Shown here piece by piece: positions 17,162 to 45,537 of a stretch of DNA of 64,000 nt. Under the pieces are notes generated by a model. The model was not told the DNA's origin and ran no database searches. It saw only the letters and a program-made list of their open reading frames with translations. Every line of letters begins with the position of its first letter. The stretch's first letter is position 1. The stretch is from Pleurocapsa sp. FMAR1 (GTDB lineage: Bacteria > Cyanobacteriota > Cyanobacteriia > Cyanobacteriales > Xenococcaceae). The position numbers were made by a program, and so were the translations under genes. The stretch is from NCBI RefSeq assembly GCF_963665995.1, contig NZ_OY762512.1:2480001-2544000 (forward strand), written 5' to 3'.

Positions 17162-18292
17162 ATGCAGAATATTAGACATGACGTTGTTGTCACTGGGATA
17201 GGATTAATCTCGTGTCTCGGTTCACTCCAAACAACCTGGTCAAGTATTGTGCAGGGTAAATCAGGGATCAAACTCCAGCAGCCTTTCGCTGAACTCCCAG
17301 TTTATCCTTTGGGCTTAATTAACTCTCAACCGAGCAGAATAGATAATTTAACCCAGAAAATTCTGCTTGCTACCCTCATAGACGCTAAGTTACAAATTCC
17401 TTTGCTTGAATGTGGCGTGGTTATAGGTTCGAGTCGTGGTTGCCAAGCAACCTGGGAAGAATTAATAGTTCAAAAAGATGGTCATATTCTTAACTGGTTA
17501 GAAACTCTACCTCATCAAAGCGCGATCGCAACTGCTCAATATTTACAAACCAATGCACCTGTTTCAGCTCCAACGGCTGCTTGCGCTACGGGAATCTGGG
17601 CATTAGCCAGAGGCTATGAGTTAATTAAAACTGGTCGATGTGAAAGAGTATTTGCTGGTGCAGTTGAAGCTCCAATTACGCCTTTGACTCTGGCTGCTTT
17701 TGAGCGCATGGGAGCATTAGCATCTACAGGCTGTTATCCTTTTGATGTTAAGCGAGAAGGACTGGTTTTGGGAGAAGGAGGAGCAATGTTTGTTTTAGAA
17801 ACAGGAGAGTCAGCAACTCGCCGTCAAGCAAAAATTTACGGCAAAATATCAGGCTTTGGATTAACCTGCGATGCCCACCACATTAGCGCACCCAAGGCGA
17901 CAAATGGTAGTGCAGCCAGAGCGATCAAACAAGCTTTAGAGCGAAGTAATTTAGAAGTTCAGGCGATCGACTATATTCATGCTCACGGTACTAGTACGTC
18001 TTTAAACGATCGCCATGAGGCACAGTTAATTAAACATATATTTCCTCAAGGAGTTGCCGTAAGCTCTACCAAAGGAGCCACAGGACATACTTTAGGCGCA
18101 TCAGGGGCAATTAATGTGGCATTGACTCTCATAGAAATGAAGCATAGCTATTTACTCCCCTGTGTAGGTTTAATTAATTCTGAATTTAACTTAGATTTAG
18201 TTACTCAGCCAAGAAAAAAACAGGTGCATCATGCCATGTGCTTCAGCTTTGGCTTTGGAGGACAGAATGCCGTAATAACCTTGAGTAAATAA
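17162..18292 (+). CDS. Beta-ketoacyl-ACP synthase, FabF-like, short form
   Basis: Condensing enzyme of the KAS I/II fold that extends acyl-ACP with malonyl-ACP. The Cys-His-His triad is complete: Cys141 in PTAACATGIW, His275 in HAHGTST and His309 in GATGHTLGASG. The C-terminal gating motif FSFGFGGQNA is present. At 376 residues it is about 35 shorter than typical FabF, with a reduced cap region after residue 40 and around 95-115. No acyl-carrier protein or fab gene lies beside it, so it may serve a special lipid or natural product instead of bulk fatty acids (inference). Confidence 0.9.
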   Translation: MQNIRHDVVVTGIGLISCLGSLQTTWSSIVQGKSGIKLQQPFAELPVYPLGLINSQPSRIDNLTQKILLATLIDAKLQIPLLECGVVIGSSRGCQATWEELIVQKDGHILNWLETLPHQSAIATAQYLQTNAPVSAPTAACATGIWALARGYELIKTGRCERVFAGAVEAPITPLTLAAFERMGALASTGCYPFDVKREGLVLGEGGAMFVLETGESATRRQAKIYGKISGFGLTCDAHHISAPKATNGSAARAIKQALERSNLEVQAIDYIHAHGTSTSLNDRHEAQLIKHIFPQGVAVSSTKGATGHTLGASGAINVALTLIEMKHSYLLPCVGLINSEFNLDLVTQPRKKQVHHAMCFSFGFGGQNAVITLSK

Positions 18293-18512
18293 GCTGTTAG
18301 CCTCCGTAATTATATTGTTTGGTAATTATGTTAATCGATCTAAGTCGTACAATACAATAGGTATATATCTATAAGAAAAGTTTGATAGTCGCAAACAATG
18401 ACTACCACCACAACTTCATTAAGCCTCGAAGAATATCTTGCCTATGACGACGGTACAGATAGTCGTTACGAACTGGTAGATGGAAAATTAGTAGCTATGC
18501 CACCAAAAAGCG

Positions 18513-18612
18513 ATGCAGCACGTTGGGCGGGTTCGCCGACTTGAAGTGACATAGAGGCTAACGCCTCAAAGTCCCTTCGGGACGCTGGCGCGAATGCGCC
18601 GTTCAAGAAGCG
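18513..18612 (+). mobile_element. 100-bp multi-hairpin insertion element in the Uma2 gene (copy 1)
   Basis: Begins ATGCAGC and ends CAAG, flanked by the direct repeat AAGCG at 18508-18512 and 18608-18612 (a target duplication or target-site preference). The interior holds several small hairpins: GAGGC/GCCTC (18553-18567), GTCCC/GGGAC (18571-18583) and GGCGC/GCGCC (18587-18600). It has no coding capacity. Its end sequences are shared with copy 2 at 18884. Confidence 0.8.
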
Positions 18613-18883
18613 CTCGCAACAATTTAATTGCCCTTTATTTGCTTTCAAAATTTATTAAGCTAGTTCCTATTCAACTAATTCGTCATAAAAATACAGAGAT
18701 TGTCGTCACGGGTAATCGTACTAGAGTCAGAATTCCTGATTTAATGATTCTGACAGAGGATTTGTTAGCAGCAATAGGCGGTAGACGAGCTACTATCACT
18801 GCTGATATGCCACCTCCTGCTTTGGTTGTAGAAATTGTATCTCCTGGTAAAGCAAATGAAGACAGAGATTATCGGTATAAGCG

Positions 18884-18935
18884 ATGCAGCGCGGTCTTGG
18901 GGGTTTCCCCCAAGACCGCGCTGCATCAAGAAGCG
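18884..18935 (+). mobile_element. 52-bp perfect-hairpin insertion element in the Uma2 gene (copy 2)
   Basis: A 20-bp perfect stem (18884-18903 with 18907-18926), beginning ATGCAGCGCGG, has a 3-nt TTT loop, then CAAG. AAGCG flanks it at 18879-18883 and 18931-18935. It has the same start (ATGCAGC), end (CAAG) and flank (AAGCG) as copy 1, with a different, shorter interior. Confidence 0.85.
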
Positions 18936-19268
18936 TTCTGAATATGCTGCAAGAGGCATTTTAGAATATTGGATTGTCGATCCTCAAAGTGACAAAATTA
19001 CAATCTTGTCGTTAGTAGATGGTTTTTACGAAGAAACTGTTTTTGAAGGAGATCAAGCGATCGCTTCACAGGTTTTGAAAGAGTTATCAATAGCAGCAGC
19101 AGAAATTCTAAACTTTCAATAAAGAAATTGATAACTGATTAATATTCGTTAACAAACCACCACAGAGTAACGTAACTGTTAGAGAATATTGATCTATAAG
19201 CACCTAAATGATGGCAACTGTTAGAGTCAGATTGTCTAAATAGAAAAAGAAGTTAAGTATTTAAAATA

Positions 19269-34474: not shown

Positions 34475-34549
34475 AAGTTTGAAGACAGAAGTATGAAGGC
34501 GCGAAGTTTCAAGTTTGTTCGAGGGCTTGTACCTCATACGAAGGAAGAA

Positions 34550-34577
34550 GTTTGAAGTTTGAAGTTTGAAGTTTGAA
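34550..34577 (+). repeat. Heptanucleotide array (GAAGTTT)n inside the IS remnant
   Basis: Four units of GAAGTTT. Related fragments recur at 34475-34490 and 34818-34850. Nearby are runs of a second heptamer, TACCTCA / TACTTCA, at about 34611-34652 and 34902-34940. Confidence 0.75.
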
Positions 34578-34651
34578 GGAATTCGGAATTCGGGAAGGAT
34601 TTTTTGTAGCTCATACCTCACACCTCATACTTCGCGCCTTCATACCTCATA

Positions 34652-34726
34652 CACAGGGCTATCGCCCAGATCGTCCGTCCTTCGGACGACTTCGATGCTT
34701 CGCATCGTGTAGGGCGAAGCCCTGGT
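34652..34726 (+). repeat. 75-bp multi-hairpin repeat, copy A
   Basis: Identical over 75 bp to copy B. The outer stem CAGGGCT..CGCCC pairs with GGGCG..AGCCCTG. Two inner hairpins are CGTCCG/CGGACG and CGATGC/GCATCG, giving a branched, cruciform-capable fold. Confidence 0.9.
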
Positions 34727-35027
34727 ACCTCTACCAAACTAAGAGCGATCGTGAACGACGGGGCTTGCAACTATAGTGGAACAAAGGACTTGTCCGCATG
34801 TAGGAGGAAGTAGCTGTTTACGAAGTTTGAAGGAAGAAGTTTGAAGGAAGAAGGAAGAAAGATTTTTTGTACCTCATACGAAGGAAGAAGTAGCTGTTTT
34901 ACTTCATACTTCATACCTCATACTTCATACTTCATGCAGCTGTTTTACTTCATACACGGACTCTCTGTCCGTCGCCGTTCCCGAGGAGACGTCGGAACGC
35001 AGAGAGCGTTCACCTCACACTTCGCGC

Positions 35028-35102
35028 CACAGGGCTATCGCCCAGATCGTCCGTCCTTCGGACGACTTCGATGCTTCGCATCGTGTAGGGCGAAGCCCTG
35101 GT
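35028..35102 (+). repeat. 75-bp multi-hairpin repeat, copy B
   Basis: Exact duplicate of 34652-34726, 376 bp downstream in direct orientation. It ends exactly where the surviving transposase frame resumes (35103). Confidence 0.9.
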
Positions 35103-35672
35103 CAACCTAAAAACTTTCACTTTCATTTAGCAGAGGCAATTTGCTTACACAACGTACAGATTCACAAAGGTGAATTTTCTGGCAAAGTTCATGTGATTCT
35201 TGGTCGCAACAACGTTAACGGCGAACTATGGGCAATTGTCAGTAATGAAAAAACTACTCTACAAACCTTTGCTGAATATGGATTACGTTTTGATATCGAA
35301 GCGAATTTTTTAGATGACCAATCTGGTGGTTGGAATGTTCAACGCTCGATGATTCGAGATGTATGCGCTTTGTCCCGTTTGTGGTTTATCTTATCTGTGG
35401 CTACTCTCTACGTTAGTGCCCAAGGTGTTGAGGTAGTTCGTATTGGCAAACGAAGATGGGTTGATACTCATTGGTTTCGTGGTAATAGCTATTTTAGGAT
35501 TGGTTGGGATTGGGTCAAAGCTGCACTCATTAATGGTTGGAATTTACTTCATTGCGTGACTTTCTCTAGTAATCAAGATCCCTCACCTGCAATGGCATCA
35601 CGATCGCAATATCAAAAACGAGCAGATCAGTTGGAGTTCAAAGTTTTAACTTATTCCTACAATATTTCTTGA
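35103..35672 (+). pseudogene. IS4-family transposase, C-terminal fragment
   Basis: The frame is open from 35103, with no own start; the GTG at 35193 is only internal. It encodes the C-terminal third of a DDE transposase. The IS4 signature Y-x2-R-x3-E is visible in YGLRFDIEANFLDDQ, but the Lys expected seven residues after the Glu is Gln. That, and the missing N-terminal two thirds, make it inactive. It stops 20 bp before the right end of the IS. Confidence 0.88.
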
Positions 35673-36709: not shown

Positions 36710-36810
36710 ATAGGTAGGAAAAATTAATTAGAAGATAGTCTTGATAACGAGTAACAAGTAATGAGTAACGAAAATAGATTATAGTATCTTGTTTACTTGA
36801 TTTTACCCCT

Positions 36811-36851
36811 CGCGCGTTCCCTTGCGCCTTACGGCGACGCGGGGTCGCTCG
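36811..36851 (+). repeat. REP-like palindromic element
   Basis: CGCGCGTTCCCTTGCGCC, a TTAC centre, then GGCGACGCGGGGTCGCTCG. Same arms as 10794-10856 and 38111-38146. Confidence 0.75.
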
Positions 36852-36940
36852 TTTTAATTCCATCCACATACTTGGCTGAAACAAAAATATTACTTAAAAT
36901 AAGTTAGAAATATGCTTGTTTGTAGAGTTTATAGTTTTCC

Positions 36941-38016: not shown

Positions 38017-38168
38017 GGTCAGCGGTACACCGCCTTGAAAAGGAGGAGCGACCCCCTGAAGGGTGAGACAGTTTGCTCAACGGGTCACAGACCCGCAACG
38101 CAACTGTCTCACCGCGTCGCCGCTACTGCGCAAGGGAACGCGCAAGAAATGCGGTGCCTGCGCTGACC
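38017..38168. repeat. Nested palindromic repeat cluster
   Basis: The outer arms GGTCAGCG (38017-38024) and CGCTGACC (38161-38168) enclose further hairpins. GTGAGACAGTT pairs with AACTGTCTCAC around a CGGGTCACAGACCCG hairpin, and a REP-like element (38111-38146) of the 10794/36811 type lies between. It is non-coding and fills the gap between the small membrane protein and the glycosyltransferase. Confidence 0.75.
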
Positions 38169-43233: not shown

Positions 43234-45537
43234 ATGAACACCGCAACGAATACAGAAAAGATAAATCTCAAACTCAGGGGGATGAGTTGCGCTTCCTGCG
43301 CTAGCAGTATCGAATCAGCAATTAGTAATGTACCTGGGGTAGAGTCATGTAACGTCAACTTTGGTGCAGAACAAGCTGCGATTAAATACAATCCCCGCCG
43401 AACTAGCATTGAAGATATTCAAGAGGCAGTAGAAGAGGCAGGATACTCGGCTTATTCTCTTCAAGAACAAGAACTGGTTACGGGAGAAGATGACCGAGAA
43501 AAAGCTGCCCGTAAAGCCGAATCTCGCGACTTAATTCGTAAAATGATTGTTGGTGGCGTAATTAGCGTCATTTTAATTATCGGTTCTCTACCAATGATGC
43601 TGGGGTTGAATTTACCTTTTATTCCTGCATGGTTGCACAACCCCTGGCTGCAATTAATCTTGACTGCGCCAGTACAGTTTTGGTGTGGTTACAGGTTTTA
43701 TATCGGTGCGTGGAAAGCTTTCAAACGTCATGCTGCGACGATGGATACGTTAATAGCTTTAGGTACGAGTGCAGCTTATTTCTATTCGTTATTCGCTACC
43801 ATATTTCCTAATTTCTTTCTCAGTCAAGGCTTGATGCCTGAAGTTTACTACGAAACCGCAGCCGTTGTTGTTACCTTAATCTTACTTGGACAATGGTTTG
43901 AAAATCGAGCCAAGGGGCAAACCTCAGATGCGATTCGTAAAATGATGGGTTTACAGGCTAAAGATGCCAGAGTCATTCGTGACGGACAAGAAATAGATGT
44001 TCCTGTTAATGAAGTTCAAATCGGCGACACCATCTTAGTACGCCCTGGAGAAAAGATTCCCGTTGATGGAGAAATAATTAGCGGGAATTCCACTATTGAT
44101 GAAGCGATGGTGACGGGGGAAAGTATACCCGTCAAAAAGCAGCCAGGGGATGAAGTAATTGGTGCGACTATTAATAAGACAGGTAGTTTTAAATTTAGGG
44201 CTACTAGAGTCGGCACAGATACAGTTTTAGCGCAGATTGTTCAACTGGTACAAGATGCCCAAGGTTCAAAAGCACCAATTCAAAGACTAGCGGACAAGGT
44301 TACAGGCTGGTTTGTGCCTGTAGTAATTGCGATCGCCCTTGCTACTTTTGTCCTCTGGTTTACCATCATGGGGAATGTTTCCTTAGCTTTAATCACTACT
44401 GTCGGCGTATTAATTATTGCCTGTCCCTGTGCTTTGGGTTTGGCAACTCCTACATCTGTCATGGTAGGTACGGGGAAAGGTGCAGAAAATGGAATTTTAA
44501 TTAAAGGTGCAGAGAGTTTGGAACTCGCTCATAAACTGCAAACTATTGTCCTTGATAAAACTGGTACGATTACCGAAGGAAAACCCACTGTTACTGATTA
44601 CAATACCGTTAGAGGAACTGGGAATAATGCAGAATTAAAATTATTACGCTTAGTCGCAGCAGTCGAACGTAATTCCGAACATCCTTTAGCCGAGGCGGTA
44701 GTAAAATACGCCCAGTCACAACAGATAGATCTACCAGAAAGTGATGAGTTTGAAGCAGTAGCAGGTAGCGGAGTACAAGGAACTGTTTCAGATTGCGAAG
44801 CTAGCCGTAGGCATCGCCTAGTACAGATTGGCACTCAACGCTGGATGTCTGAATTGGGCATCAAAACCGATACTTTACAACAACAAAAAGATATTTGGGA
44901 GGCAGAAGCCAAAACCGTAGTGCTAATTGCCATAGATGGCGAACTAGAAGGAATTATGGGTATTGCCGATGCGGTAAAACCATCTTCCACCGCAGCAGTT
45001 AGGGCATTACGCAATCTAGATTTAGAAGTAGTGATGCTGACAGGAGATAACCAAAAAACCGCCGAAGCGATCGCCCGTCAGGTGGGTATAGTAAGAGTAG
45101 AGGCGGAGGTACGTCCCGAGCAAAAAGCTGCCAAGGTAAGGGAATTACAGCAGGAAGGTAAAACTGTGGCTATGGTAGGGGATGGTATCAATGATGCCCC
45201 CGCACTAGCTCAAGCCGACGTGGGTATTGCCATTGGTACGGGAACGGATGTGGCGATCGCAGCTAGTGATATTACGCTCATTTCGGGAGAATTACAGGGT
45301 ATTGTGACTGCCATACAGTTAAGTAAAGCGACGATTAATAATATCCGTCAGAATCTTTTCTTTGCCTTTGTTTATAACGTTATCGGTATTCCCATTGCAG
45401 CAGGAATTTTGTTTCCTTTCTTTGGCTGGTTGCTCAATCCAATTATTGCTGGCGGTGCGATGGCGTTTAGTTCGGTTTCGGTAGTAACTAATGCTTTACG
45501 TTTGAGGAATTTTAGTCCGTCAAAAGTCCGTTCATAA
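43234..45537 (+). CDS. copA: Copper-translocating P1B-type ATPase
   Basis: Pumps Cu(I) across a membrane at the cost of ATP. The 767 residues hold one N-terminal HMA domain (Cys19 and Cys22 in GMSCASC), eight membrane helices, the transport motif Cys397-Pro-Cys399 ([12 protein letters not shown]), the phosphorylation site Asp441 (DKTGT), the SEHPLAEA nucleotide motif and GDGINDAPA at about 649. The C-terminal helix has the MAFSSVSVV motif of Cu(I) pumps. In cyanobacteria such pumps are CtaA (plasma membrane) or PacS (thylakoid); which one this is cannot be told. Residues 521-528 (CEASRRHR) are encoded by a palindromic repeat inserted in the nucleotide-binding domain. Same operon as the chaperone and cupredoxin. 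Confidence 0.95.
44795..44817 (+). repeat. Palindromic repeat translated within the copper ATPase
   Basis: Imperfect palindrome beginning GCGAAGCTAGCC and ending GGCATCGC, of the kind scattered through Nostoc-like genomes. It sits in frame between VSD and LVQIG, adding about 8 residues, most of them polar or charged, to the loop. Confidence 0.65.

Follow-up and report, generated by a model that had tools for sequence, protein, structure and literature searches.

Small mobile repeats without genes of their own have been described from several bacterial lineages. The small dispersed repeats (SDRs) of Nostoc punctiforme were reportedly held to be mobile by Elhai et al. (2008); they are said to be 21-27 nt long, to form heptamer arrays and hairpins and to nest, and movement mediated by RNA has reportedly been suggested for them. 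The smallest mobile repeats are too small to carry anything, and their mode of movement is, to our knowledge, an open question. Elements of the IS200/IS605 kind insert 3' of a short fixed sequence without duplicating their target. Their movement is single-stranded (HUH) and their hairpins are recognised (PMC6006769); SDR5 is described as splitting HIP1 after its third base (PMC4390886), and SDRs as being some 20 bp long (PMC2884548). The Rickettsia palindromic elements (RPEs) are palindromic repeats lying in frame within protein genes, and in the two papers cited they are about 150 bp long or tagged with CGTC (PMC10969869, PMC3733652).

The window analysed here is a stretch of 64,000 nucleotides from Pleurocapsa sp. 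FMAR1 (G000:C1:2480001-2544000 of a 5.43-Mb single-contig genome). It holds a Uma2 gene (18398-19122) interrupted by two inserts, e1 (100 bp) and e2 (52 bp), each flanked by AAGCG, starting with ATGCAGC and ending with CAAG-AAGCG. A sequence-only reading had placed the net inserts at 18513-18612 and 18884-18935, to the right of AAGCG at 18508-18512 and 18879-18883, and had claimed that their removal restores a protein of 190 residues; the coordinates hold, and the flanks joined by script give 573 nt encoding 190 residues and a stop. Pieces of the split gene match the Pfam profile Uma2. A better register for both inserts is AAG^CGATGCAG...CAAGAAG^CG, which places them at 18511-18610 and 18882-18933. 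The features of the locus are as follows.

18398..18510, plus strand: first part of Uma2, up to the AAG before e1 (orthologues L122, L123)
18508..18512, plus strand: AAGCG left of e1, of which AAG is target and CG is element in the revised register
18511..18610, plus strand: e1, 100 bp, chained form with the 5' end CGATGCAG, several hairpins and the 3' end CGTTCAAGAAG; absent from L122 and L123
18554..18567, plus strand: inverted repeat GAGGC-TAAC-GCCTC of e1, read from the sequence
18573..18585, plus strand: module CCCTTCGGGACGC of e1
18587..18600, plus strand: inverted repeat GGCGC-GAAT-GCGCC of e1
18611..18881, plus strand: middle part of Uma2
18882..18933, plus strand: e2, 52 bp, a member of the 51-bp family in perfect-palindrome form
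18884..18903, plus strand: 5' arm of the perfect 20-bp stem of e2
18907..18926, plus strand: 3' arm of e2, exactly complementary to the 5' arm; the common form has CCCCCATGAGCGACTGCAT at this place
18934..19122, plus strand: last part of Uma2

The two interiors are as different as had been claimed, e1 containing several small inverted repeats whereas e2 is a single perfect stem around the loop TTT. Because both lengths are 1 mod 3, the frame is broken, and the Uma2 gene of the window is a predicted pseudogene, made so by two frame-breaking forms of 100 and 52 nt. A search of 18200-19250 against Rfam gave two matches, both far under the gathering scores.

Related genomes provide clean empty sites. 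The orthologues in G010 (L122, 193 aa) and G001 (L123, 192 aa) are intact, the former with both neighbours as in the window and the latter with the same upstream neighbour followed by the contig end; the possibility that intact Uma2 genes already contain the two segments was not borne out, as L122 and L123 carry neither. In both, the first site reads GAAAGCGATCGCAAT (HIP1) and the second AAAAGA. A further orthologue (L124, in G009) has at the first site a different, SDR5-like insert of 21 bp, GCG-ATGCCTACGGCTAGCTTCGCA-ATCGC, which reads as lying within HIP1 and is soon followed by a stop; this repeat occupies the HIP1 site that e1 occupies in the window, yet it differs from the 51-bp family in sequence and length and is without the CAAGAAG tail. 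The 21-bp repeat embedded in HIP1 also recurs in the window (GCGATGCCTACGGCTAGCTTCGCA), on the minus strand at 44794-44817, where ATCTG and not ATCGC follows, one HIP1 half being decayed.

Five of 11 further Uma2 stretches (L099-L103, from the same genome) were also read for inserts, and L103 is without a hairpin insert. Six inserts were read in all, and four adjoin the same codon of a K-R/M-x-E-Y motif, this codon being AAG in e2, L100 and L102 and GAG in L101; e1 and L099 lie elsewhere. L101 and L102 are weaker cases because the 5' part of the gene is missing, and their inserts are in part of other hairpin frames. In the joined Uma2 gene, AG occurs 45 times and AAG 13 times. Both L099 (G000:C1:2754800-2756200) and L100 (G000:C1:1704000-1705200) combine Uma2 and a hairpin insert in a single open frame, of 269 and 229 residues, and the Uma2 gene L355 (G008:C2:37400-38500) keeps an open frame of 219 residues with two short inserts. 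The Uma2 profile has 44 matches in the Pleurocapsa genome (G000), 42 in G002 and 40 in G010, as compared to 12 in G008, which has the most simple-element copies among the 30 genomes searched.

The genome-wide search for further copies proposed by the sequence-only reading was productive. The normal unit is 51 bp long, CGATGCAG...CTGCATCAAGAAG (63 pooled pattern matches, counted as distinct places, with the chance coding match L232 kept in the counts), and its simple form consists of CG, an outer stem ATGCAG/CTGCAT, an inner hairpin and the tail CAAGAAG. In the 76 pooled sites that have 60 bp or more of flank, element length is 51 nt in 48, with a range of 48-58. In the 5.43-Mb genome AAGCGATGCAGC occurs 13 times versus once for the reversed control, several of the 13 continuing into sequence without the remainder of the element, and BLAST of e1 against its own genome gave 35 matches at E <= 1, itself included and the weakest near chance. 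Family copy counts rest on exact patterns; the 8-mer TCAAGAAG is too common for the purpose (465 versus 291 in the control). A strict pattern for the simple form matched 45 stretches in 84,980 species genomes, all of them cyanobacterial by record title and 21 of them letter-identical over 51 bp; the hosts are Moorena, Okeania, Hydrocoleum, Crocosphaera, Cyanothece, Xenococcus, Myxosarcina, Pleurocapsa, Hyella and Mastigocoleus, together with records named only to family, order or "unicellular cyanobacterium". A laxer pattern is present in 13 of 30 relatives, its reversed control in none of 30 genomes. Three partial matches, covering 64-79% of the query, were found on cyanobacterial plasmids; there was no match to one exact pattern in viral_contigs and none in phages. 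A k-mer island scan of 400 kb and the window returned mostly other repeats. The 51-mer is named in none of the titles or abstract openings found by literature search, and it may still be published.

Insertion is just 3' of AG on the CGATGCAG side, often at AAG^CG and including positions inside HIP1 (GCGATCGC). Of the 63 pooled matches, 61 have G immediately to the left and 57 have AG; the corresponding counts in the strict set are 45/45 and 42/45. We consider e1 and e2 to be, with a probability of roughly 0.8, very small non-autonomous mobile hairpins of a cyanobacterial family, SDR-like and moved in trans. The earlier claim of a non-autonomous family with conserved ends, free interiors and a target preference agrees with this; both inserts belong to one family, as was claimed, but they are not of equal kind, e2 being a palindromised simple form and e1 a chained one. 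The unit would move as a single-stranded hairpin, either as DNA or as RNA copied to DNA, and an enzyme supplied in trans would cut and join after AG on both sides; viewed as a single strand, NNAAG-CGATGCAG...CATCAAGAAG-CG, the cuts would fall 3' of both AAG. As to the class of enzyme, a Y1/HUH transposase of the IS200/IS605 kind would best account for the hairpin, for a target that is short and 5' of the element, and for the missing duplication, although we propose it tentatively and at somewhat less than even odds.

In the same genome, seven Y1_Tnp loci were scanned for the end motifs, and no pair bracketing a gene was found. Single end-like motifs are present at L188 and L191 (TCAAGAAG, partly inside the frame) and at L189 (coding); CGATGCAG...CAAGAAG at L189 was rejected as an element, as it lies within the Y1 reading frame without the rest of the element. 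A RAYT-type gene, suggested earlier as a possible partner, was likewise discarded: the gene at L192 of the same genome, which we take to be RAYT-like, is flanked by GTAG repeats of its own (GTAGGGTGGGCA), and GTAG stands at the left junction of the family in 2/63. Left and right ends were listed in seven genomes in search of an autonomous element sharing them, and in the 150-170 bp read before right ends (20 stretches of G008 and 10 other loci) no gene lay between ends; what we found there was hairpin chains, other 5' starts (CGATTAGC, CGGTGCAG) and, in a few places (L249, L252), coding DNA that matched by chance.

The interiors vary although the ends are conserved. The 32 distinct forms fold, taken singly, most as an outer stem with an inner hairpin and some with a weak inner stem only; the RNAalifold consensus fold of the 32 was poor, and single folds were used instead. 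By eye, inner stems vary jointly on both sides (GGGGG/CCCCC, GAAGG/CCTTC, GATGG/CCATC, CGGAG/CTCCG). In e2 the 3' arm of the common form has given way to an exact complement of the 5' arm, and L234 is the mirror case, a perfect palindrome made in the opposite direction; interiors are inverted in L022 and L240, and in G008 arm chimeras occur in every combination of two 5' arms with two 3' arms. Such arm conversion would most simply reflect template switching inside the hairpin during replication, of which changes of this kind would be the expected product in a quasi-palindrome, and template switching would explain the "free interior" noted from the sequence alone. Movement through RNA, in which a structured transcript is copied to DNA and inserted, is a possible route, if a doubtful one: the hairpin is retained in all 32 forms, and SDR-like habits (HIP1 copies that can be read as a third/fourth-base insertion, heptamer arrays, nesting) point to it, but neither the inverted interiors nor the palindrome conversion requires RNA.

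Units also chain and interrupt one another. The 5' and 3' halves of the chained form e1 each recur elsewhere in the genome, in other combinations and split by further hairpins, and the module CCCTTCGGGACGC is itself split in this way at other loci (L043/L050, L045/L051). At L040 and L016 (G000:C1:245999-246312), about 310 bp of chained hairpin units lie between the two end kinds of the family. Elsewhere in the window, 34480-35140 is dense in short repeats (GAAGTTTGAAG, ACTTCATAC) and long hairpins, blocks nearly identical to it standing near 104.4 and 105.6 kb in the genome, and hairpin modules of other frames are found at 36780-36880 and 38030-38140 (GGCGACGCGGGGTCGC; GACAGTTTGCTCAACGGG...GCAACTGTC).

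Copies that lie in apparently coding DNA mostly leave the frame open. By a working definition of a coding site (matching frames on the two sides, each open over 60 residues or more), 21 of the 76 pooled sites are coding, and in 19 of these the copy is 51 or 48 bp long and the frame continues straight across it; the other two are e2 and L233, both of 52 bp. Lengths not divisible by three occur in 2 of 22 coding sites (22 when counted by locus id) as compared to 20 of 54 others. Plus-strand copies are inserted in phase 0 in 10/16, in phase 1 in 6/16 and in phase 2 in 0/16, phase 2 making up 235 of the 848 AG sites in ten such genes; read in phase 2, the common form yields TGA. This bias is suggestive only, because the 21 coding sites are not independent (TnpB three times, PAS twice, DUF4058 twice, and L186 in a heptamer array). 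Nine flanking pieces compared with Pfam gave RVT_1, RVT_N, OrfB_IS605, PAS_3, TPR (two pieces) and DUF4058, with no match for 2/9.

In a reverse transcriptase gene, one and the same Lys-Arg codon carries an identical 51-mer (51/51) both in Xenococcaceae MO_167.B27 (L160/L215) and in Mastigocoleus testarum (L176); the flanking DNA is 63% identical (128/202 and 190/302 aligned columns), and to the right of the 51-mer 65/100 residues are identical. Common inheritance would hardly keep a 51-mer perfect within flanks of 63% identity, which makes independent insertion, or recent conversion, likely; the copies in these two distant genera were probably inserted independently. One could envision a distinct class of codon-sized mobile hairpin, 51 nt or 17 codons long and gene-less, that crosses cyanobacterial orders and re-targets Lys-Arg (AAG^CG) codons. 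The re-targeted homologous genes would be the reverse transcriptases and Uma2, the unit being stop-free in two of three frames; such a hairpin may need only host replication and repair or a generic single-strand enzyme, and the frame would be maintained by selection on the host proteins. We regard so distinct a class as unlikely, though worth keeping in view.

To the right of CATCAAG the sequence is AAG in 52 of the 63 pooled matches, and the left triplet of these 52 is AAG in 27, GAG in 11, CAG in 6, TAG in 4 and another in 4; right AAG is missing in 11/63 and left AG in 6/63, L232 being counted in both. The 3' AAG is mostly the element's own, with only AG regularly common to both junctions, and in 27/63 target and element are indistinguishable because AAG stands on both sides. 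A 2-bp duplication of AG is possible at most sites. An IS607-like serine recombinase with a 2-bp AG core would account for AG at both junctions and for the usual lack of other duplication, but left GG or TG accompanies right AG in 4/63, and we consider such an enzyme improbable. The 51-bp family is also far smaller than known serine-recombinase substrates.

Still less probable are ordinary MITEs of a DDE transposase, for which AAGCG would be a 5-bp target duplication. It is true that AAGCG flanks both inserts, that L002/L017 have AAAAG on both sides, compatible with a 5-bp duplication, and that L321 has GAG on both sides, also compatible with duplication; these are exceptions. A true duplication would copy the left triplet, and as right AAG is constant beside left GAG, CAG and TAG, AAGCG is not a duplicated target, and a direct repeat made by insertion is not supported. 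In G008, for which 30 right ends were listed, the stretches analysed hold 28 right ends, 25 of them with a recognised left end; among these, left GAG is found in 25/25 copies and right AAG in 24/25, with 24/25 lying inside (T/A)CAGGAG heptamer arrays; in G004 the copies L248 and L259 lie in phase within CACAGATGAA arrays. Moreover, the outer bases are unequal, CG adjoining one arm and CAAGAAG the other. No duplication of constant length was found. AAGCG is a real target preference and not a duplication: after L232 and seven same-locus repeats were dropped, AAG^CG was present at 10 of 45 right-AAG sites, as against 1.4% when all AG in a 464-kb sample of the Pleurocapsa genome were counted, and CGATCG (the HIP1 core) on the right at 7/45 versus 0.6%, about 25-fold, the other 38 sites not being HIP1; both enrichments are rough, the background being one genome and the sites coming from many. 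Finally, translational bypassing, in which ribosomes would hop e1 and e2 via matching codons (AGC...AGC at e1 and AAG...AAG at e2, in the right frames, e2 being a strong hairpin) and Uma2 would still be made, is scarcely credible given that the same elements lie in heptamer arrays, that coding copies are usually 3n and read through, and that Uma2 is highly multicopy (44 profile matches) with other copies interrupted too.

As probable mobile hairpins moved in trans, the members of the 51-bp family may be set beside the systems named at the outset. Like SDRs, they are cyanobacterial, tiny, dispersed, hairpin-forming and apparently mobile, and they show the heptamer arrays, hairpins and nesting that are ascribed to SDRs; the 51-mer may equal a published SDR. 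Their HIP1 copies can be read as occupying the third/fourth-base site of SDR5. Unlike SDRs, they are 51 bp or more, HIP1 accounts for only a minority of their sites, and copies within coding DNA mostly lie in frame. They resemble RPEs in being an in-frame palindromic insert in 19/21 coding copies, the two inserts in Uma2 of the window being out of frame; they differ in being 51 bp long, cyanobacterial and inserted after AG, and in none of the 63 matches does CGTC stand at the left junction. With REPs and REPINs that depend on a RAYT they share a hairpin, conserved outer bases and a non-autonomous nature, but not the tag (GTAG 2/63, CGTC 0/63). Their position 3' of a fixed AG (57/63), usually without duplication, recalls IS200/IS605, in contrast to which a single 51-nt hairpin unit takes the place of two end hairpins around a gene. 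Filled and empty sites, an exact size, the AG rule, identical distant copies and arm conversions make the mechanism of the 51-bp family testable, and in-frame "protein-coding palindromes", best known from Rickettsia, would be extended to free-living cyanobacteria, where proteins of the transposase, reverse transcriptase, PAS and TPR kinds would gain 17 residues. What appears to be new by this comparison is the 51-bp variant itself, whereas its habits (a HIP1 site in some copies, arrays, nesting and in-frame insertion) resemble those described for SDRs and RPEs.
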